Part shown: piece by piece, positions 49,233 through 58,064 of the stretch
Layout of the letters: every line of letters starts with the position of its first letter
How positions within the stretch are numbered: position 1 is the first letter of the stretch
NCBI RefSeq assembly: GCF_001417815.1
Contig: NZ_BCFK01000003.1
Span: 62,001-126,000 of the forward strand
DNA: 64,000 nucleotides
Direction: 5' to 3'
Source of the DNA: Bifidobacterium aesculapii
Lineage (GTDB): Bacteria; Actinomycetota; Actinomycetes; Actinomycetales; Bifidobacteriaceae
The notes under the pieces: generated by a model
What the model saw: only the letters and a program-made list of their open reading frames with translations
Database searches by the model: none
Told to the model about the DNA's origin: nothing
Made by a program: the position numbers and the translations under genes

Positions 49233-49256
49233 CGGCTCCCTCATCGGAGGGAGCCG
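49233..49256 (-). terminator. Terminator of the racemase/asnB operon
   Basis: CGGCTCCCTC (49233-49242) pairs perfectly with 49247-49256 around an ATCG loop. On the minus strand the 3' arm is followed by TTTTGTTTG, a good U-run. It lies 56 bases past the racemase stop. A weaker GGCTCCCT-containing hairpin closer to smc (about 49170-49195) may serve the plus strand. Confidence 0.75.
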
Positions 49257-49311: not shown

Positions 49312-50049
49312 TTATGACGCGCGCAGCGCCTTGGCGCGCGCTATCGTGTCGTCGACGAGCACGGCCTGCGCGTCGACGAGTGGCAGCTGCGGCATCGGGA
49401 ACGCCTCGTTGAGCACGGACAGTTCCGTGCAGCCGAGAATCAGCGCGTCGGCGCGCACCGGTCCGGACGGGTCGAGCATGTCGCGCAGCACCGACTCGTA
49501 GCGTTCGAGGTTCAGCCCGCCGGTGCCCTTCACATCGTCGTAGATGAGCGACGTGATGCGGTCCTGCAGCGCGTCGTCCGGTTCGACGAACTCGTACCCG
49601 GCCTCCTCGACGGCCTGCCGGTACACGCCCGCCGCGCGCGAACCCATCGTGCCGAGGAACCCGACGCGCCCGCATGTACCCGAAGGCGCGTGCGGGTACA
49701 GCGTGGAGAGACGCCTGACGGCGCCGCGCGGCATGTGCAGAATCGGCACCGGCGTGAGCGCCTGGAAATGATCGTAGAAGTAGTGGGCCGTGTTGCAGGT
49801 GAGCACGATGAAGCTCGCGCCCATCGCGGTGGCCTTGGCGATGTCGTCGGCGATCACGGGGAACGGGTCGTCGTCCGACTGCCCGGTGATGAACGCGGTC
49901 CTGTCCGGCACGGACGCGTCGTTGAACACGACGTAGTCGAGGTATTCCTGATCGTTGCGTGCGTGCGTGCCCTCGTTGACGAGACGCACGTAGCTTTCCG
50001 TGGCGAGCGAGCCCATGCCGCCCAGTACGGCGAAGAACGGTCGGCGCAT
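49312..50049 (-). CDS. Aspartate/glutamate racemase family protein
   Basis: The 245-residue protein begins FFAVLGGMGSLATESYVRLV and has the two catalytic cysteines of PLP-independent Asp/Glu racemases: FIVLTCNTAHYFYD (about residue 85) and LILGCTELSVLN (about 200). ATG 50049 follows GAGGGG inside the end of asnB, from which it is four bases away, so the genes are translationally linked. A D-Asp (or D-Glu) source fits the adjacent ATP-grasp ligase. The family also includes hydantoin racemases, but the GMGSLAT and TCNTAH motifs favour the aspartate type. Confidence 0.85.
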   Translation of the reverse strand: MRRPFFAVLGGMGSLATESYVRLVNEGTHARNDQEYLDYVVFNDASVPDRTAFITGQSDDDPFPVIADDIAKATAMGASFIVLTCNTAHYFYDHFQALTPVPILHMPRGAVRRLSTLYPHAPSGTCGRVGFLGTMGSRAAGVYRQAVEEAGYEFVEPDDALQDRITSLIYDDVKGTGGLNLERYESVLRDMLDPSGPVRADALILGCTELSVLNEAFPMPQLPLVDAQAVLVDDTIARAKALRAS

Positions 50050-50053
50050 GCGG

Positions 50054-51949
50054 TCAGCGCCCCTCGATGTGCTCGTCGATCGCCGGCTTCTCGCCGTTGT
50101 GGACGAAGTAGATGTCGTACCAGGTGAGGAACGAGTACACGGTCCAGATCTTGCGACGCGCGTTGTTCCTGCCCGCGTAGTTGTCGTCGAGCATCTTGAG
50201 CAGCGTCGGCTGGTCGAAGAACTCGGAGACGAAGTCGCGGGAGAAGAGCTCGCGCACCAGACGATAGTAGGGCTCCTGACGCAGCCACTCCTTGATGGGT
50301 ACGGGGAATCCCATCTTCTCGCGGTTGTACCAGGCCTCCGGCAGATGGCGCGCGGCGGCCTCACGGAACGCGTACTTGCTGTTGCGCCAGTTGATGAGGT
50401 ACTTGGTCGGCACCGTTTCGGCGACGTCCATGACCTCGCGGTCGAGGATCGGCACGCGCAGCTCAAGCGAGTTCGCCATGGACATCTTGTCCGCCTTGAG
50501 CAGGATGTCCTTGACCATGCCCTGATGCATGTCGGCGTACTGCTTCTTCTTGATGTCGCTCACGTTGCGCAGCTTCGGCGTGCGCAGCAGCTGGCGGATA
50601 CGCACCCACTGGCTCGTGCCGTTGCGGTACGCGGGCTTGAGCAGTTCGTCGGCCTCCTGCTCGGTCATCACGCGCGAGCAGCCGTGGAAGCATTCCTCAG
50701 GTGGAGCCAGATGCAGGTACATGTGCAGTTGGCCGTGGAAATGCTTGTCGCGGATCGCATGCGCCAGAGCGGTGCGCATCGGACGCGGCAGCTTCTCCAA
50801 CGCCGCCGTGAGCAGGCGGATGGCCTTCGATTTCGTGTAGAAGCCGTAAGGCTGGTAGCCGGCGAACAGCTCGTCCGCGCCCTCGCCGCTCATGACGACG
50901 CGCACCTGGGAGGCGGCGAGTTTGGAGACGAAGTACAGGGGCACGCAGGACGGGTTGCCGTCCGGTTCGTCCAGATGCCATTGGATGCGGCGGAAGTGGC
51001 TGAACGCGTCATGCGGGGTGACGGTCTTCGCCTCGTTGTTGAGCCCGATCATCTCGGACAGTTCGTGCGCCTGCCTGGCCTCGTTGAACTGGCCGGTGTC
51101 GAAGCCCACGGAATACGTGTGGTCGGGGCGTGCGACCGCGGCGACATAGCTGGAGTCCACGCCGGCGGAGAGGAAGGATCCCACCTCGACGTCGGCGACC
51201 TGGTGGGCGGCGACGGAGTCGCACACGGCCTTGTCGATGTCGTCGACGACCTTCTTCAGGCTCTGCCGGGACTCGCGCTGGTTGGGATCCCAGTACTGAT
51301 GCTGCTCCATCTTCCCGTCGCGGTAGGTGAACCAGTGGGCGGGCGGCAGCTGGAAGACTCCCTTGAAGAAGCTCTGGTCGGTGATGTTGCACTGGACCGT
51401 CATGTAGGCCTTCAGCGGGTCGGGATTGAACTCCTTGACGAAGTCGGGATGCTGGATGAGCGACTTGATCTCGGACCCGTACATGAACGTGCCGTTCATC
51501 CTCGCATAGTAGAACGGCTTGATGCCGAAGCGGTCGCGGGCGCCGAACAGCTCGCGTTTGGCCTTGTCCCAGATCACGAAGGTGAACATGCCGCGCAGGC
51601 GGTCGAGCAGCTTCGGCCCCCACTCCTCGTAGCCGTGCAGCAGCACCTCGGTGTCGCCGTGGGTGGCGAACGTGTGGCCGGCGGCGATGAGTTCCTCGCG
51701 TAGCGGCTGGTAGTTGTAGACCTCGCCGTTATAGGTGATGACAAGGTTGCCGTCCTCGTTGGTCATCGGCTGCTTGCTGCCCTCGAGGTCGATGATGCTC
51801 AGGCGGCGGTGGCCCAGGGCCACGTGTTCGTCGACGTACTTGCCTTCGGCGTCGGGCCCGCGGTGGGCGATGATGTCGGTCATGCGTTTGATGACCGGGC
51901 ATTTGACGTCGACCGGATCGTCGTTGACGAAACCTGCGATGCCGCACAT
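50054..51949 (-). CDS. asnB: Glutamine-dependent asparagine synthetase (AsnB type)
   Basis: The 631-residue enzyme begins MCGIAGFVNDD, with Cys2 as nucleophile of the class II glutaminase domain (1-~210; TYNGEVYNYQPLREEL, GDTEVLLHGYEEWG). The synthetase domain has SFLSAGVDSSYVAAV (PP-loop SGGxDS variant: SAGVDS), MSGEGADELFAGYQPYG and a C-terminal YNREKMGFPVPIKEWL. It could make free asparagine. By its place between a racemase and a D-Asp-ligase-like gene it could equally amidate D-Asp in the peptidoglycan bridge, as AsnH does in enterococci. The two roles cannot be separated from sequence alone. Confidence 0.9.
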   Translation of the reverse strand: MCGIAGFVNDDPVDVKCPVIKRMTDIIAHRGPDAEGKYVDEHVALGHRRLSIIDLEGSKQPMTNEDGNLVITYNGEVYNYQPLREELIAAGHTFATHGDTEVLLHGYEEWGPKLLDRLRGMFTFVIWDKAKRELFGARDRFGIKPFYYARMNGTFMYGSEIKSLIQHPDFVKEFNPDPLKAYMTVQCNITDQSFFKGVFQLPPAHWFTYRDGKMEQHQYWDPNQRESRQSLKKVVDDIDKAVCDSVAAHQVADVEVGSFLSAGVDSSYVAAVARPDHTYSVGFDTGQFNEARQAHELSEMIGLNNEAKTVTPHDAFSHFRRIQWHLDEPDGNPSCVPLYFVSKLAASQVRVVMSGEGADELFAGYQPYGFYTKSKAIRLLTAALEKLPRPMRTALAHAIRDKHFHGQLHMYLHLAPPEECFHGCSRVMTEQEADELLKPAYRNGTSQWVRIRQLLRTPKLRNVSDIKKKQYADMHQGMVKDILLKADKMSMANSLELRVPILDREVMDVAETVPTKYLINWRNSKYAFREAAARHLPEAWYNREKMGFPVPIKEWLRQEPYYRLVRELFSRDFVSEFFDQPTLLKMLDDNYAGRNNARRKIWTVYSFLTWYDIYFVHNGEKPAIDEHIEGR

Positions 51950-52060
51950 ACTGTGTTCTCCTTCACGTGTCGTGGAAACTCCGGGAATTATAGCAGTGGG
52001 AGACGTCGGCGGGACGACCGCGCGACGGCTCCGCCGACGTCTCCGACGCGCCAGCGACGT

Positions 52061-53353
52061 TCAGCGCCGGGGTGCGTAGCGCTTGAAATCGCGGGCGACG
52101 GCCATCTGCCAGCGCAGCAGTTCCAAGGCGCGCCGGAGATTCGTGTCGTGGGCGTCGTGTGCGGAACGGCTCCATTCGCCTCGTGCGATGAGGTTCATCG
52201 CCTCCTGCTTGACCGGACCGTCCGGCGCGTACCTGCGGAACACGTCCTTCGAGGTGCCGAGCCAGAGATGGCGGGTGAAGCACAGTTCGGTGGGACGGCG
52301 CTCGCCGAGGATGAGGTCGCGGCCGATGTACGCGGCGAGATTATACCCGGCGCAGGTGGTGAAGTCGCTCGACCCGCCCATGCGGGGGTTGATTTCCAGG
52401 AACCGGTAGGAGCCGTCGCGCGGGTCGCGCTTGATGTCGAAGTTGGCGAATCCGGTGTAGTGCAGCGTCTCCAGCAGCTTCGCGCATTGGCGGTACACCT
52501 CGTCGTCGCCTTCCGACATGATCGCCGCGTAGTTGCCGATGCGGCTGGGCGCATACTCCTCCATGATCGGATGCCCCATGCACATCATGGCGATGGTGCC
52601 GTCCATGTTCACGTAGGCATTGAGCGTGCGCATCTCGGTGTCGTCGCCGGGGATGAACTCCTGGATGACGAGGTCGCCGTCGTATCCCGCCGTATAGATG
52701 GCCTTCGCCACCTGGTTCAGCTCTTCGCGCGTGCGGATCGTGTACGCCTTCTTGCGGCCTTCGAATTCGATGCCGAGATACTGCACCGAGTCGGCGGCCT
52801 TGAGCTCGAGCGGGAAATCCGAAGGCTCGGGCACCGGTCTTCCGGCTTTGAAGTCGGCGGTCGAATAGGCGGCGGTGGCGGGTGTGTCCACTCCGGCCTC
52901 GTCGCACAGCCTCCAGAATGCGACCTTGTCGACGGCGCGTTCGAGCGTGGGGCCGTCGACGGTGGCGGTCGCGTAGCGTTTGCGGATCGCGTCGCGGTGG
53001 CGGGCGAGCAGGGCGGCGGTCGTGTCGCCGCAGGCGATGAGCAGCAGACGGCGGCCCGGCACCGTGGCCTCGAGGTCGTCCGCGAGACGCATGAGCCGCA
53101 GCACGAACCGGTCCTCGTCGGTCAGGTCCGGAATGACCCGCGTATCCACGTATCTGGAATACCGGCATTGCAGAAGGATGGCGGGGCCGACGGCCAGCGA
53201 GGCGACGCCGAACTCCTTATGGAAACCGCGGGCCAGACCGTAGGCGTTGGCTCCGCTGCCGAGTAGGACGGGAAGGAACGACGGCGCCTCCCCGACCGCA
53301 CCGGCGGCCTCGTTGCTCGTGGTATGGGCGGGGGATAATGTGCGTTCGTTCAT
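52061..53353 (-). CDS. ATP-grasp ligase, D-aspartate-ligase-like (bridge formation)
   Basis: The 430-residue protein has an N-terminal Rossmann-like domain (PVLLGSGANAYGLARGFH), a middle part, and the ATP-grasp fold: KAADSVQYLGIEFEGRKKAY, DLVIQEFIPGDDTEM, and the metal-binding FANFDIKRDPRDGSYRFLEI and NPRMGG. The order of motifs resembles D-aspartate ligase Asl of enterococci and lactococci, which joins beta-D-Asp to the epsilon-amino group of Lys in the peptidoglycan precursor. The neighbouring racemase gives the needed D-amino acid. The acceptor (Lys or Orn) and donor are inferred. A TACAAT at about 53421-53426 on the minus strand may be its own promoter. Confidence 0.75.
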   Translation of the reverse strand: MNERTLSPAHTTSNEAAGAVGEAPSFLPVLLGSGANAYGLARGFHKEFGVASLAVGPAILLQCRYSRYVDTRVIPDLTDEDRFVLRLMRLADDLEATVPGRRLLLIACGDTTAALLARHRDAIRKRYATATVDGPTLERAVDKVAFWRLCDEAGVDTPATAAYSTADFKAGRPVPEPSDFPLELKAADSVQYLGIEFEGRKKAYTIRTREELNQVAKAIYTAGYDGDLVIQEFIPGDDTEMRTLNAYVNMDGTIAMMCMGHPIMEEYAPSRIGNYAAIMSEGDDEVYRQCAKLLETLHYTGFANFDIKRDPRDGSYRFLEINPRMGGSSDFTTCAGYNLAAYIGRDLILGERRPTELCFTRHLWLGTSKDVFRRYAPDGPVKQEAMNLIARGEWSRSAHDAHDTNLRRALELLRWQMAVARDFKRYAPRR

Positions 53354-53446
53354 GGTCTTCCTGGGGTTTGGGTATTTCCCCGGAAGCGTGCGCCGTCCGG
53401 GGCTGTCGGTGCTGGGGACATTGTAGCGCCGTGGCGTAACGGTGCG

Positions 53447-54454
53447 TCAGGAGCGTCGGCGCAGTCGTCGCCGGACGGACTGCATGAGACGCAGCGCGCC
53501 GTAGAACGCCGTCTTCACCGGCACGTCGCGTGAGGGGGCGACGTCCGTGATCTCCTCGGTGAACTTCGTCTTGAATTCGTTGAGCCCCTTGAGCGAGGGG
53601 GCGAAGTCGCTGCCGATGCCCATCAGGTCGTAGGCGGTCACGCCCCGCGCGCCGAGCATGCAGCACTCGGTGTACAGGAGCTTGTCGGTCACGTGCATGC
53701 GCATCGCCTCCGAACGCATGCCGGCATAGTAGCGTACGGCATGCGTGCCACTGACCGTCACGATGGACCATGCCATCACCTTGCCGTCGAGGCGTGCGGC
53801 GAAGACGCGGCAGTGGTCGGGGCCGAGCGTGCGGATCATGTCCTCGTAGTCGCTTTGCGGCGCGGGGGCGAATCCGTCGCGCGACCCGGTCTCGACCATC
53901 ACCGCGTAGTAGTCGGAGAAATCGGCGGTCGCGAGGTCGGTCTCGTCGGCGCATTCGGCCGCGCACTCGCGCAACGACTTGCGCACGTCCCTCCTGCCGC
54001 GCCGCTTCATGCGTTTGAGGATCTCCTCATCGCCACCGGTCACGTCGATGACGACGGTCGAGTCGTACGGCACAGTGGAGAGCACGGGGACCGTCCCGTC
54101 CTCATACCAGGTGTCCAGACGCAGGAACGCGGCATTGCGGTCGAACGAGCGCATCGCCTTGACGAGTGCCTGAAGCGTCTCGAGCTCCGTTGCGGCGTCG
54201 GGCTTGCCGTCGAGCCATACCGGTCCGTGCATCGCGCGCAGGTAATGGTAGCCATGCGTCAGGTAGTCGACGAGAGAGAGGAACGCGACCGGCTCGCCGT
54301 CCCTCAACACACAGAGCACGCCCCAATGGCGCCGACCGTCGATCGTGCTCTGGTACCGCGCCCATGCCTCGGTCTGTTCGATGGGCAGGTCGAGGCCGTG
54401 GGCCGCGGCTTCCTGTCCGAACCGTTGAAACGTCGTCTTTTCGATCGTGAGCAT
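53447..54454 (-). CDS. FemABX-family peptidyltransferase (first of two)
   Basis: ATG 54454 was chosen by GAGG about nine bases ahead and by alignment with the next gene's start. The 335-residue protein has the FemX/MurM double-GNAT fold: LPIEQTEAWARYQSTIDGRR, YLRAMHGPVWLDG, FLRLDTWYEDGTVPVL, RMKRRGRRDVRKSLRECA, YYAGMRSEAMRMHVTDKLLY, and GIGSDFAPSLKGLNEFKTKF. It should use aminoacyl-tRNA to add an amino acid to the branch of lipid II. No tRNA-binding coiled-coil insertion is seen. It is about 60% alike by eye to the upstream paralogue, so the two may add successive residues. The amino acid is unknown. Confidence 0.85.
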   Translation of the reverse strand: MLTIEKTTFQRFGQEAAAHGLDLPIEQTEAWARYQSTIDGRRHWGVLCVLRDGEPVAFLSLVDYLTHGYHYLRAMHGPVWLDGKPDAATELETLQALVKAMRSFDRNAAFLRLDTWYEDGTVPVLSTVPYDSTVVIDVTGGDEEILKRMKRRGRRDVRKSLRECAAECADETDLATADFSDYYAVMVETGSRDGFAPAPQSDYEDMIRTLGPDHCRVFAARLDGKVMAWSIVTVSGTHAVRYYAGMRSEAMRMHVTDKLLYTECCMLGARGVTAYDLMGIGSDFAPSLKGLNEFKTKFTEEITDVAPSRDVPVKTAFYGALRLMQSVRRRLRRRS

Positions 54455-54605
54455 GGGAACCGCCTCTGTGTCTTGGATATCCGTCATTCGTGCCGTGTTG
54501 CGGATCGAGAGATCCGAGCCACAGCGTACCGGAAGCCTATGTAACGACATGCGAATGCATGCTCGCGGGAAGAAGGCTGAACGTTCGCTGTGGCATGTGT
54601 GGGCG

Positions 54606-55610
54606 CTATTCGCCGCGTATGCCGTCACGCATCCGCTTGGCGGCCTGCAACGCCTGGTACATGGTGCGACGCACCGGAACGTCGCGCGAAGGGGCGACGG
54701 GGGTCGTCTCCTCGGCGAACTTCGTCTTGAACGTGTTGAGCGAGCGGATCGACGGCGAGAAGTCGTTGCCCACTCCCATGAGGTCGATGCGTCCGACGCC
54801 ACGTTCGCCGAGCGCGCAGCAGAACGTGTACAGCAGTTTGTCCGGTACGAGCGCGCGGCGGAATTCGGTGCGCACGCACGCGTAATAGTAGACGGCCTCG
54901 TCCCCGTTGACGGTGAGGATCGCCCAGGCGACCACTTCGCCTTCGACACGTGCGGCGAAGACGCGGCAGTGGTCGGGGCCGAGGTCCCGGATCATGTCCT
55001 CGTAGTCGCTTTGCGGTGCGGGCTCGAAACCATCCCTCTCGGCGGTCTCGACCATCACGTCGTAGTATGCGGAGAAATCCTCGGCGGCGGCGTCCGTCTC
55101 GTCCGCGCAGACGGCGGGGCTTTCGCGCAGCGCCTTGCGCACGTCGCGGCGGCCGCGCTTCCTCATGCGCGCGAGGATCTCCTCGTCGCCGCCGGTCAGG
55201 TCCACGACCACCGTCTCGTTGTACGGCACGGTGGAGAGCACCGGGAAGGTGCCCGTTTCGTACCAGGTGTCGAGGCGGAGGAACACGACGTCATGGTCCT
55301 TTGCGTGAACGTACGCCGCGAGGGCTTCGAGCAGTTCGCGCTCCTCGTCCTCGCCGGGCTTGCTCGCCCACACCGGTCCGTGCGTGGAACGCAGGTAATG
55401 GTAGCCGTGCGTGTGGTAGTCGATGAGCGAAAGCAGGGCGACGACACGGCCGTCACGTCGGGCCAGCACGCATCCCCACGGGGCGCGCCCGTCGATGCCC
55501 GCCTGATAATCGGCCCACACGCGCGTCTGCTCTATGGGCAGCGTGACGCCCATCCGCGCGGCTTCGCGCTCCATGGTTGCGGAATCGGTTTCCTCGATGA
55601 TCGTCGACAT
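54606..55610 (-). CDS. FemABX-family peptidyltransferase (second of two)
   Basis: The 334-residue protein is a close paralogue of the gene at 53447: LPIEQTRVWADYQAGIDGRA, YLRSTHGPVWASKP, RMRKRGRRDVRKALRES, YYYACVRTEFRRALVPDKLL and GVGNDFSPSIRSLNTFKTKF align throughout. The gap to the downstream copy is 151 bases and to murE upstream 78 bases, so one transcript from murE to the racemase is possible. Family function: transfer of an amino acid from aminoacyl-tRNA to the lipid II side chain. Tandem copies imply a bridge of at least two added residues, or two alternative bridges. Confidence 0.85.
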   Translation of the reverse strand: MSTIIEETDSATMEREAARMGVTLPIEQTRVWADYQAGIDGRAPWGCVLARRDGRVVALLSLIDYHTHGYHYLRSTHGPVWASKPGEDEERELLEALAAYVHAKDHDVVFLRLDTWYETGTFPVLSTVPYNETVVVDLTGGDEEILARMRKRGRRDVRKALRESPAVCADETDAAAEDFSAYYDVMVETAERDGFEPAPQSDYEDMIRDLGPDHCRVFAARVEGEVVAWAILTVNGDEAVYYYACVRTEFRRALVPDKLLYTFCCALGERGVGRIDLMGVGNDFSPSIRSLNTFKTKFAEETTPVAPSRDVPVRRTMYQALQAAKRMRDGIRGE

Positions 55611-55688
55611 ATCCTTCGGTGGTCTTCTTCCTTGGTGTTCTGTTGCCCTTGGTGTTCTTCCGTGCGATGGCCAGGTCCCGCGCGTGCG

Positions 55689-57275
55689 TCAGTTCCGGCG
55701 GTCTTCCAGCACCCGCCTGACGACGTTCGCGTCACCGGGCCATGCCACGGCCTCGCCGTTGATGATGTTGCGGGTCTCGTGCCCTTTGCCGATGACGAGC
55801 ACGATGTTCAGACGCCCGGTGGCGGCCACATCGGCGCGCGCCTCGTCGATGGCCGTGGCGATCGCCCGTTCCCGGTCCACGACCACCTTCGTCTCGGCCT
55901 TCGGGTCGGTCACGTGGGAGGCCATCTCCTCCGCGATCGCGCGCGGATCCTCGAAATTGGGGTCGTCGGTGGTGAGGATGAACGAGGAGGCTCGGCCCAA
56001 CGCCCCCTTGACGATGCCCTCGCGACGGTCGATGGCCTTGCCGCCGGTCGAACCGGCGACCAGCGTGATGCGCGGATCGCGTTCGCCGTACACGCGCAGC
56101 ACCTCGTCCACGACGGATTTGGTGGAGATGTAGTTGTGCGCGTAGTCCACATACACGTGCAGGTCGTCGCCTTCGGTGAACCGCTCCATGCGCCCGGGGA
56201 CCTGTACATGCTCGACGGCGCGCATCGCGGGGTCGTCGAACGGCACGCCGGTCCTCATCGCCAGCGTCATCGCGGTGCCGGCGTTGAGGAAGTTGAACTC
56301 GCCGAGCATGTCGAGCGCGAGCGTGACGGTCCGGTCGCCGCACGTCACGCGAATGCCGGTCCTGCACGACGGGTCGATGGACACCGTCACGTCCGCGGGC
56401 GTCGTGTGGCCGTCGGCCGCATCATGCAGGGCGAACGTGGTGACCGGCGTTCCCGCGCGGCGCGCGTCCTCGCGCAGCAGGTCGGCGTGGTCGCAGTCCG
56501 CGCCGAGCACGAGCGTGCGCGAGTTGCCGATGATGCGGCGCTTGCAGTACAGATAATCCTCGAACGTGGGGTGTTCGATCGGGCTGATGTGGTCGGGGGA
56601 GATGTTGAGGAACGCGCCGACGTCGAAGGTGAGTCCGTATACGCGGTTCACCTTGTACGCCTGGGAACTGACCTCCATGACCATGTACTTCATGCCGGCG
56701 TCGACCGCCTCGCGCATCATGCGGAACGCGTCGAGCGATTCGGGCGTGGTGAGCTTGGAGGGCGTCCATGTGCGCCCGTCCAGACAGCACGCCAGCGAGC
56801 TCATCATCGCGGCGCGGCCATGCGAATACGCGTTGAGGATCGCATGCGTGAAGTAGTCGGTGGTGGTCTTGCCCTTCGTGCCGGTGATGCCGACGAGCGT
56901 GAGCGAGTCCTGCGGACGGCCGTAGAACTCTGCGGAAAGCAGGCTCATCGCCTTGCGCACGTCCTCGACGATGAGACCGGGCGCCTTCGTGCGGTCCGCG
57001 TAGGGGGTCTGCGCCACGTAGGAACCGAGCCCCCGCCCGTCGATGCCGTCAAGGAACTCGGGCTTGAACCGTCCCTTGACGAACAGCATGGAGCCGGGGG
57101 CGACTTGACGGGTGTCGTAGGTGACGGCGGGGATCGGGGCATCGGCGCCGGGCAGCGACGCGGCATCCATCGTCCACCGGTCGCCGGCGACGATCTCACG
57201 CAACAGATGATGGTTATCCAGCAGCTTGGCCGCGGAGACGAGACTCAACGGCGAAGTCGTGGTGGGCATAGGCAA
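55689..57275 (-). CDS. murE: UDP-MurNAc-L-Ala-D-Glu ligase MurE, probably L-lysine/L-ornithine adding
   Basis: The 528-residue enzyme has all parts: N-terminal domain (VTYDTRQVAPGSMLFVKGRF), ATP loop VGITGTKGKTTTDYF at about 128-142, MEVSSQAYKVNRVYGL, ISPDHISPIEHPTFEDYL, and a C-terminal domain with VDYAHNYISTKSVVDEVL. In the substrate-specificity region it reads DDPNFEDP, not the DNPR typical of DAP-adding enzymes, which fits the Lys/Orn peptidoglycan of bifidobacteria. It lies outside the dcw cluster, next to bridge-forming genes. It is the only complete MurE in the window. Confidence 0.92.
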   Translation of the reverse strand: MPMPTTTSPLSLVSAAKLLDNHHLLREIVAGDRWTMDAASLPGADAPIPAVTYDTRQVAPGSMLFVKGRFKPEFLDGIDGRGLGSYVAQTPYADRTKAPGLIVEDVRKAMSLLSAEFYGRPQDSLTLVGITGTKGKTTTDYFTHAILNAYSHGRAAMMSSLACCLDGRTWTPSKLTTPESLDAFRMMREAVDAGMKYMVMEVSSQAYKVNRVYGLTFDVGAFLNISPDHISPIEHPTFEDYLYCKRRIIGNSRTLVLGADCDHADLLREDARRAGTPVTTFALHDAADGHTTPADVTVSIDPSCRTGIRVTCGDRTVTLALDMLGEFNFLNAGTAMTLAMRTGVPFDDPAMRAVEHVQVPGRMERFTEGDDLHVYVDYAHNYISTKSVVDEVLRVYGERDPRITLVAGSTGGKAIDRREGIVKGALGRASSFILTTDDPNFEDPRAIAEEMASHVTDPKAETKVVVDRERAIATAIDEARADVAATGRLNIVLVIGKGHETRNIINGEAVAWPGDANVVRRVLEDRRN

Positions 57276-57344
57276 ACTCTCCTGGATGTCATGGCGCTGC
57301 GGGTCTCGCGGACGCCACGCAAGATACTACTACAATGGGCAACC

Positions 57345-58064
57345 GTGACCAGCGAGACGACAGAGACCACGGCGCAGCGCCGGGAACGCTTCGAACGGCT
57401 CGCCATGCCGGCGCTCGACGCGCTGTACCGGCGGGCGATGCGCCTGACCAACAACCCCGACGACGCGCAGGACCTCGTGCAGGACACGTTCGAACGCGGG
57501 TTCAAGGCGTTCGACTCGTTCCGCCCCGGCACGAACTTCGAGGCGTGGATGACGACCATCGAACGCAACGCCTACTTCAACCAGTATGCGAAGGAGAAGC
57601 GCCGCCCGCAGCGGGCGAACGCCTCCGACGGCGAATACGACGACTGGGACCTCTACGAGGCGTCCGAGCACTCCTCGGACGGCCTGAGGTCCGCCGAGGA
57701 CGAGTATCTCGACGCGTTCGCGCCCGAGGAGATCATGGAGGCACTCGCGAAGCTTTCGCCCGAACGCCGGCAGGTGTTCATCGACACGGCCATCGACGGC
57801 AAGACGTACCGGCAGGTCGCCGAGGAGCAGGGCGTCGCCATCGGCACGGTGATGAGCCGTCTCAACCGCGCCCGCACGCAGCTCAAGCACGAGCTCGCCG
57901 CATATGCGCGCGAGCACGGCTACGGCACGCAGCTGCCGTCCGGTTCACCCTCGGCGAAGTCCGATGCGAAGCGTGCCGGCGCGCGTGTCTCCGGCGATAA
58001 TGGAGACGGAGGCCGCGAGGCGTGCGATGGCGCGGACGCGGCCGGGCGAAAGGAGATGCGATGA
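57345..58064 (+). CDS. RNA polymerase sigma factor, ECF type (SigH/SigR-like)
   Basis: GTG 57345 is used; TACAAT at 57331-57336 is eight bases before it and no ribosome site is seen, so the mRNA may be leaderless. The 239 residues hold sigma region 2 (about 20-90; PALDALYRRAMRLTNNPDDA, DLVQDTFERGFKAFDSF) and region 4 (about 135-185; LSPERRQVFIDTAIDGKTYR, GTVMSRLNRARTQLKHEL). The C-terminal ~45 residues are a disordered extension. RGFKAFDSFRPGTN is typical of the SigH/SigR group that answers thiol-oxidative stress. The next gene overlaps by four bases and would be its anti-sigma factor. Confidence 0.88.
   Translation: MTSETTETTAQRRERFERLAMPALDALYRRAMRLTNNPDDAQDLVQDTFERGFKAFDSFRPGTNFEAWMTTIERNAYFNQYAKEKRRPQRANASDGEYDDWDLYEASEHSSDGLRSAEDEYLDAFAPEEIMEALAKLSPERRQVFIDTAIDGKTYRQVAEEQGVAIGTVMSRLNRARTQLKHELAAYAREHGYGTQLPSGSPSAKSDAKRAGARVSGDNGDGGREACDGADAAGRKEMR

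Follow-up and report, generated by a model that had tools for sequence, protein, structure and literature searches.

Peptidoglycan bridge types have been used as taxonomic markers for decades. According to a general statement in the excerpted text of PMC2922099, ATP-grasp ligases give rise to cross-links of D-residues, and Fem ligases to cross-links of glycine and L-residues. In the Asl/RacD/AsnH system of lactococci, enterococci and lactobacilli, D-Asp is added straight onto Lys (PMC4155827, in excerpt). Among bifidobacteria, the murein of B. bifidum contains serine and aspartate, as worded in the title of Koch, Schleifer and Kandler (1970) cited in PMC11209152. The bridge is given as Lys-Gly for B. 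breve and as Orn-Ser-Ala-Thr-Ala for B. lactis (PMC11209152), and the excerpted part of PMC8660834 assigns type A3-alpha to B. animalis subsp. lactis and A3-beta to B. longum. In the open-licence literature we found no paper that assigns genes to bifidobacterial mixed L/D bridges or to D-Glu bridges, and none linking the ATP-grasp and Fem routes in one Bifidobacterium locus.

Here we analyse a locus of B. aesculapii located in a stretch of 64,000 nucleotides, referred to as the window. Six genes on the minus strand (49312-57275) encode MurE, two FemABX proteins, an ATP-grasp ligase, an AsnB-type protein and an Asp/Glu racemase. Together these genes probably form a single operon-like module for the stepwise, serial assembly of a mixed L/D interpeptide bridge. 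The parts are of known kinds; their combination, and the genus-wide code that we propose from it, appear to be a new variation on them.

The ligase of the Asl/RacD/AsnH system lies on the same side of the ligase tree as that of the window. Moreover, among the matches listed, we compared 80 named ligase loci, mainly from Enterococcus and Lactobacillaceae; as in the window, a racemase adjoins the ligase in 62 of these 80 loci, and 38 contain an AsnB-type match, mostly upstream of the ligase. However, D-Asp goes directly onto Lys in that system, whereas two FemABX genes stand between murE and the ligase in the window. Like FemXAB, BppA and MurMN, the window FemABX proteins belong to the Fem family by Pfam and give weak profile matches to solved members, but they are short, murE-linked and far from the characterised enzymes, and here Fem is followed by a predicted D-acid ligase, with no further full-length Fem proteins. 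B. bifidum provides a near precedent, with an R-type Fem, ligase and racemase at murE as in the window. The two differ in that B. bifidum combines a clade I' ligase with a single Fem and an additional DegT-type PLP gene and gives no AsnB match, whereas the window pairs its clade II ligase with AsnB and two Fem genes.

The gene row at murE

The preliminary description had listed the six genes in this order and span, and all of them were recovered from open reading frames with Pfam and NCBIfam, with two starts corrected: the racemase begins at 50049 rather than at the mechanical ORF start of 50466, and femABX-1 begins at either 54454 or 54487 (Table 1). Gaps between the genes range from 4 to about 150 bases. 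A hairpin 3' of the racemase (49256-49233), with 10 pairs, 8 of them GC, and a T-rich tail, is the sole minus-strand terminator-like site in the window; because the scan of both strands returned 6 sites against 4.2 in shuffles, this assignment relies on the quality and place of the hairpin. A search of the host genome (2.69 Mb in 93 contigs) gave a single match each for the ligase, the racemase and murE, and two for Fem. An ECF-like sigma factor frame, recognised by eye at 57335-58064 on the plus strand, points away from murE and has a common upstream region with it.

Table 1. Coordinates of the bridge locus in the window and of DegT-type genes at other loci
Feature	Coordinates	Strand	Basis or position
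murE, ligase of the third residue with DDPN motif, predicted Lys/Orn rather than DAP type	55689..57275	-	profiles, motif comparison
femABX-2, Y-type (AVYYYACVR), predicted aminoacyl-tRNA transferase, Ala/Gly-like group	54606..55610	-	
femABX-1, R-type (AVRYYAGMR), predicted seryl-like transferase	53447..54487	-	Fem motif common to B. bifidum
Clade II ATP-grasp carboxylate-amine ligase, on the Asl (D-Asp ligase) side	52061..53353	-	
AsnB-type glutamine amidotransferase, predicted AsnH-like D-Asp amidation	50054..51949	-	
Asp/Glu racemase, both cysteine motifs (TCNTAHY, GCTE), predicted D-Asp supply	49312..50049	-	
Intrinsic terminator-like hairpin closing the gene row	49233..49256	-	
DegT-type PLP gene	L044:7553-8764	+	between Fem and ligase, opposite strand
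DegT-type PLP gene	L050:6990-8276	-	between Fem and ligase, opposite strand
DegT-type PLP gene	L049:7730-9001	+	between Fem and ligase, opposite strand

MurE matches the Mur_ligase_M/C models of Pfam above cut-off, falls just below the cut-off of the murE model TIGR01085 (253.7 versus 257.3) and narrowly passes NF001129, an NCBIfam model named for DAP (763.9 versus a cut-off of 762). DAP-adding MurE enzymes carry the motif DNPR (PMC3829189, in excerpt). This motif is absent from the window MurE, which has DDPN in its place, and therefore the third residue is likely Lys or Orn despite the DAP name of NF001129. The use of DDPN versus EDT motifs to separate Lys from Orn enzymes was dropped, as the genomes that we tentatively take to be B. 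breve and B. longum both carry EDT. A murE gene is present in 111 of the 112 genus genomes surveyed below. Tandem murE pairs, one DDPN-type and one EDTD-type, occur in 15 genomes (L034, L018, L022, L029, L003 and others), compared with which the window keeps the DDPN-type gene only. In one complete chromosome (G085; L116/L006), murE is split into two overlapping frames, reflecting a broken gene or a sequencing error.

The family assignments of the preliminary description are borne out by Pfam and NCBIfam, by clade-wise co-occurrence and by the ligase tree. Both FemABX proteins match PF13480 and PF02388 above cut-off, with weak profile matches in the PDB to FemX (0.0013) and to lipid II:glycine glycyltransferase. 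The ligase matches PF15632 and PF02786 above cut-off; its predicted structure has a pLDDT of 88.5, and the 50 PDB matches listed for the model are carboxylase/ligase entries that we take to be of the ATP-grasp type. The racemase matches PF01177 (1.3e-39) and TIGR00035 above cut-off, and the cysteate racemase model below cut-off. It carries TCNTAHY and GCTE, presumably the two cysteine motifs of aspartate racemase, and its nearest solved structures bear that name. AsnB, a class II amidotransferase, matches the general asparagine synthase model TIGR01536 above cut-off.

The ligase and its neighbours across the genus

In a ligase tree of 51 rows, a branch with 100/100 support separates two sides. 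One holds the window clade, Bifidobacterium clades I and I' and the ligases of Enterococcus and Lactobacillus; the other holds clades III and IV together with Cellulomonas and Sanguibacter. The Asl side includes genera with described Lys-D-Asp bridges and Asl enzymes (PMC4155827, in excerpt). Thus, rather than grouping with enzymes of unrelated substrates, the window ligase falls on the side of the Asl-type D-aspartate ligases, and D-Asp addition is predicted for it.

The listed matches of the ligase come mostly from Enterococcus, Vagococcus and Lactobacillaceae (36-41% identity). The nearest among them from outside the genus, in Pseudoclavibacter soli (L119; 54% identity), is accompanied by genes for a racemase and a Fem protein that lie close by on the opposite strand. 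Of the 80 named loci among the matches listed, 4 contain a Fem match, namely three from Bifidobacterium and that of P. soli. No racemase match was found in the stretch for 18 of the 80 named loci, mostly Lactobacillus, among the matches listed; therefore, a neighbouring racemase is not obligatory for a D-Asp ligase. In a wider survey of the order, 20 further loci were chosen from 202 genomes with a match among 396; Fem directly adjoins the ligase in 5 of them and lies within 4 kb in 2 more, and a racemase match is present in 5. The 15-kb stretch around the ligase of Cellulomonas fimi contains neither a Fem nor a racemase match. The bridge of C. fimi is Orn-D-Glu, and that of Sanguibacter is Lys-Ser-D-Glu. 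Additionally, B. thermophilum is of the Orn-D-Glu type, and a protein bearing its name (P0011; 59% identical) lies within the window's ligase clade, against the place predicted from that type.

Across 112 Bifidobacterium genomes, the bridge genes downstream of murE vary. Presence was scored at >250 bits for the racemase, >280 bits for murE-type Fem and for full-length FemA, and E<=1e-60 for AsnB. Three Fem fragments shorter than 250 aa, the frame-broken second ligase row of G065, a 45-bit racemase match in G008 that is not an orthologue and a marginal DegT match in G045 (E 2e-5) were left out of the counts. The ligase is present in 57 genomes; in 56 of these it follows murE within one stretch, and in the remaining one, G065, murE is on another contig. 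A racemase orthologue occurs in 44 genomes (any match in 45), murE-type FemABX in 62 (any match in 67) and full-length FemA-type proteins in 41. Ligase and racemase occur together in 44 genomes, the ligase alone in 13, the racemase alone in none and neither in 55 (Fisher 8.6e-20), and full-length FemA and the ligase never occur together (the former alone in 41 genomes, the latter alone in 57, neither in 14; p 6.3e-19); AsnB is found in 33 genomes, all 33 with the ligase (p 3.5e-13), these p-values being inflated by shared descent, with clades amounting to few independent events. The deep clades of the ligase follow its neighbours as a two-by-two code of FemABX and racemase, each present or absent (Table 2).

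Table 2. Neighbouring genes by ligase clade (numbers of genomes)
Ligase clade	Genomes	Racemase	Fem	AsnB
I	35	35	0	30
I'	2	2	2	0
II (window)	7	7	7	2
III	7	0	7	0
IV	4	0	0	1
V	2	0	0	0

The Fem and ligase routes are combined in 16 of the 112 genomes, that is, in 16 of the 57 with a ligase. The preliminary description, which was right in essence and stands in part, had called this combination unusual; it is a minority arrangement, but the word is too strong for one that recurs.

Within the ligase, the racemase-positive clades differ from III and IV at residues 203 (Ala/Val), 245 (Asn/Thr) and 275 (Tyr/Pro). At position 107, the Fem-positive clades have Ala, whereas clades I and IV have Pro or Gly. 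These four positions may mark substrate choice or descent alone.

The Fem proteins fall into R-type (AVRYY) and Y-type (AVYYY). R-type Fem is found in all 16 genomes with both Fem and ligase and in 22 of the 46 Fem-only genomes that have a Fem row. Among the genomes with Fem and ligase, the window alone has a Y-type beside the R-type; the two types also occur together in G070, a Fem-only genome. B. bifidum (G010) carries an R-type Fem, and Y-type Fem is found in the genomes that we tentatively take to be B. breve, B. animalis and the catenulatum group. On the basis of these motifs, which sort with a few species of partly tentative name or bridge, FemABX-1 is the likelier candidate for a Ser-type partner of the ligase, and FemABX-2 may be an Ala/Gly-type extra that acts before, after or in place of it. 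A rule equating bridge length with the number of Fem genes matches some known cases and fails others, and was not used.

Two genomes served as species controls. The lacto-N-biosidase of G010 is nearly identical to PDB 4h04 over 626 residues, an entry that we take to be the B. bifidum enzyme, and we treat G010 as this species; murE, R-type Fem, ligase and racemase lie at one locus. The sucrose phosphorylase of G001 is identical to PDB 1r7a, presumably that of B. adolescentis, and we treat G001 as B. adolescentis; its locus reads murE-ligase-racemase, without Fem. The bridge of B. adolescentis is Lys(Orn)-D-Asp. Genomes tentatively taken for B. longum, B. breve, B. animalis and others are Fem-only, as expected. 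Orn-Ser-Ala-Thr-Ala is otherwise known as the bridge of B. longum, at odds with its assignment to B. lactis.

A probable serial bridge and its alternatives

We consider it likely that the locus makes a serial mixed bridge, Lys(Orn)-L-Ser(/Ala)-D-Asp, with the D-Asp amidated. MurE would add Lys (or Orn), after which a FemABX protein would transfer an L-residue, most likely L-Ser in the case of the R-type enzyme, from its tRNA to the side-chain amine. Its Y-type paralogue would add a further L-residue (Ala or Gly) or put it in place of the first. The racemase would convert L-Asp to D-Asp, and the Asl-type ligase would terminate the branch by joining activated D-Asp to the free amine on the residue that Fem had added. 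Finally, AsnB would amidate the bridge D-Asp to D-Asn or D-isoAsn. We infer the substrates, the order of the two Fem steps and the amidation; gene order, family membership, genus-wide co-occurrence, an Asl-side ligase and the B. bifidum locus are observed. The joint pathway suggested earlier gains support from clade-wise co-occurrence, the ligase tree and B. bifidum. The bridge module is real and coherent, and we are fairly confident of the serial mixed bridge as its best-supported reading.

AsnB is predicted from its sequence and setting to be an AsnH-like amidase of the bridge D-Asp. It could instead be merely the cell's asparagine synthetase, located there by chance, as suggested by its match to a general asparagine synthase model and by its being the single match in the host genome at E<=1e-60. 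This alternative is unlikely, given that 79 of the 112 genomes have no match at that threshold, that every holder has the ligase, that AsnB lies within 10 kb of the bridge locus in 22 of the 33 holders and that AsnB recurs at the named ligase loci among the matches listed. AsnB is absent from 5 of the 7 clade II genomes; therefore, amidation is not essential to the module.

The preliminary description had left the choice between a mixed bridge and two alternative bridges; the former held up better. Two Fem types and one ligase at one locus could reflect flexibility, with FemABX and the ligase competing for the Lys/Orn amine to yield heterogeneous branches of L-residues or D-Asp. However, we favour one serial bridge because murE-type FemABX is found in 0 of 35 clade I genomes, the ligases that accompany Fem forming other clades, and full-length FemA-type proteins in 0 of the 57 ligase genomes. 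Residue 107 also differs between Fem-positive clades and clades I and IV, as if the acceptor differed, although descent may account for this. Two competing bridges are accordingly quite improbable.

The least probable alternative is a ligase specific for D-Glu or some other acid, with a racemase that has a different role: the below-cut-off match to cysteate racemase and the racemase-free clades III and IV speak for it, but the window clade lies on the Asl side, the racemase occurs only with the ligase, its nearest solved relatives are named aspartate racemase, and AsnB fits Asp amidation.

Bridge chemistry and the genes after murE

Judging from related genomes, the set of genes at murE seems to predict the type of cross-link that a species makes. 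We tentatively propose, with slightly more doubt than confidence, that in Bifidobacterium and beyond the genes following murE can be read as a code for the chemistry of the bridge, with Fem, racemase and DegT as switches. The presence of FemABX would set the acceptor, a Fem-added residue versus the Lys/Orn amine, and the presence of the racemase would set the donor, D-Asp versus D-Glu from MurI. Since racemase absence would mean a D-Glu donor, clades III and IV are candidate D-Glu bridge ligases. The window, which has R- and Y-type Fem, an Asl-type ligase and AsnB but lacks a DegT-type gene, would make a bridge of three residues, for example L-Ala and L-Ser with D-Asn as the cap. Should the code hold, a genome would reveal the type of its bridge, a matter of relevance to the sensitivity of cells to endolysins and lysozyme and to how gut commensals are sensed by the immune system. 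The ligase clades would also offer natural enzyme pairs for finding the residues that set acceptor and donor choice.

The third switch may be a DegT-type PLP gene whose product converts the serine added by Fem to D-Ser. This gene, some 400 codons long, lies on the opposite strand between Fem and the ligase in B. bifidum and the genomes that resemble it. The three proteins tested match PF01041 above cut-off as DegT/DnrJ/EryC1-type PLP proteins, with NCBIfam scores far below cut-offs and weak PDB matches to sugar aminotransferases. The gene is present in 9 of the 112 genomes, comprising both of clade I' and all 7 of clade III, and a genome-wide search found it in 0 of the 7 clade II genomes, the window's included. 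It goes with the Fem and ligase pair whatever the donor.

The bridges listed for B. bifidum and B. boum are D-Ser-D-Asp and D-Ser-D-Glu, respectively. Some sources thus give the B. bifidum serine as D-Ser, a residue that a tRNA-dependent Fem would not supply directly. As both species are known for D-Ser, our guess is that the DegT-type gene is a candidate for making the bridge serine D, and, if so, one may further guess that the serine of the window stays L. Because this gene sits between its Fem and ligase, B. bifidum is a less exact precedent for the window.

Two genomes of the wider survey (G183 and G185; L239 and L243) carry two ATP-grasp ligases in tandem. Among the matches listed, 32 of the 33 genomes of family f11 with a match have two ligase matches, and these doubled ligases could correspond to two D-acids in the bridge.
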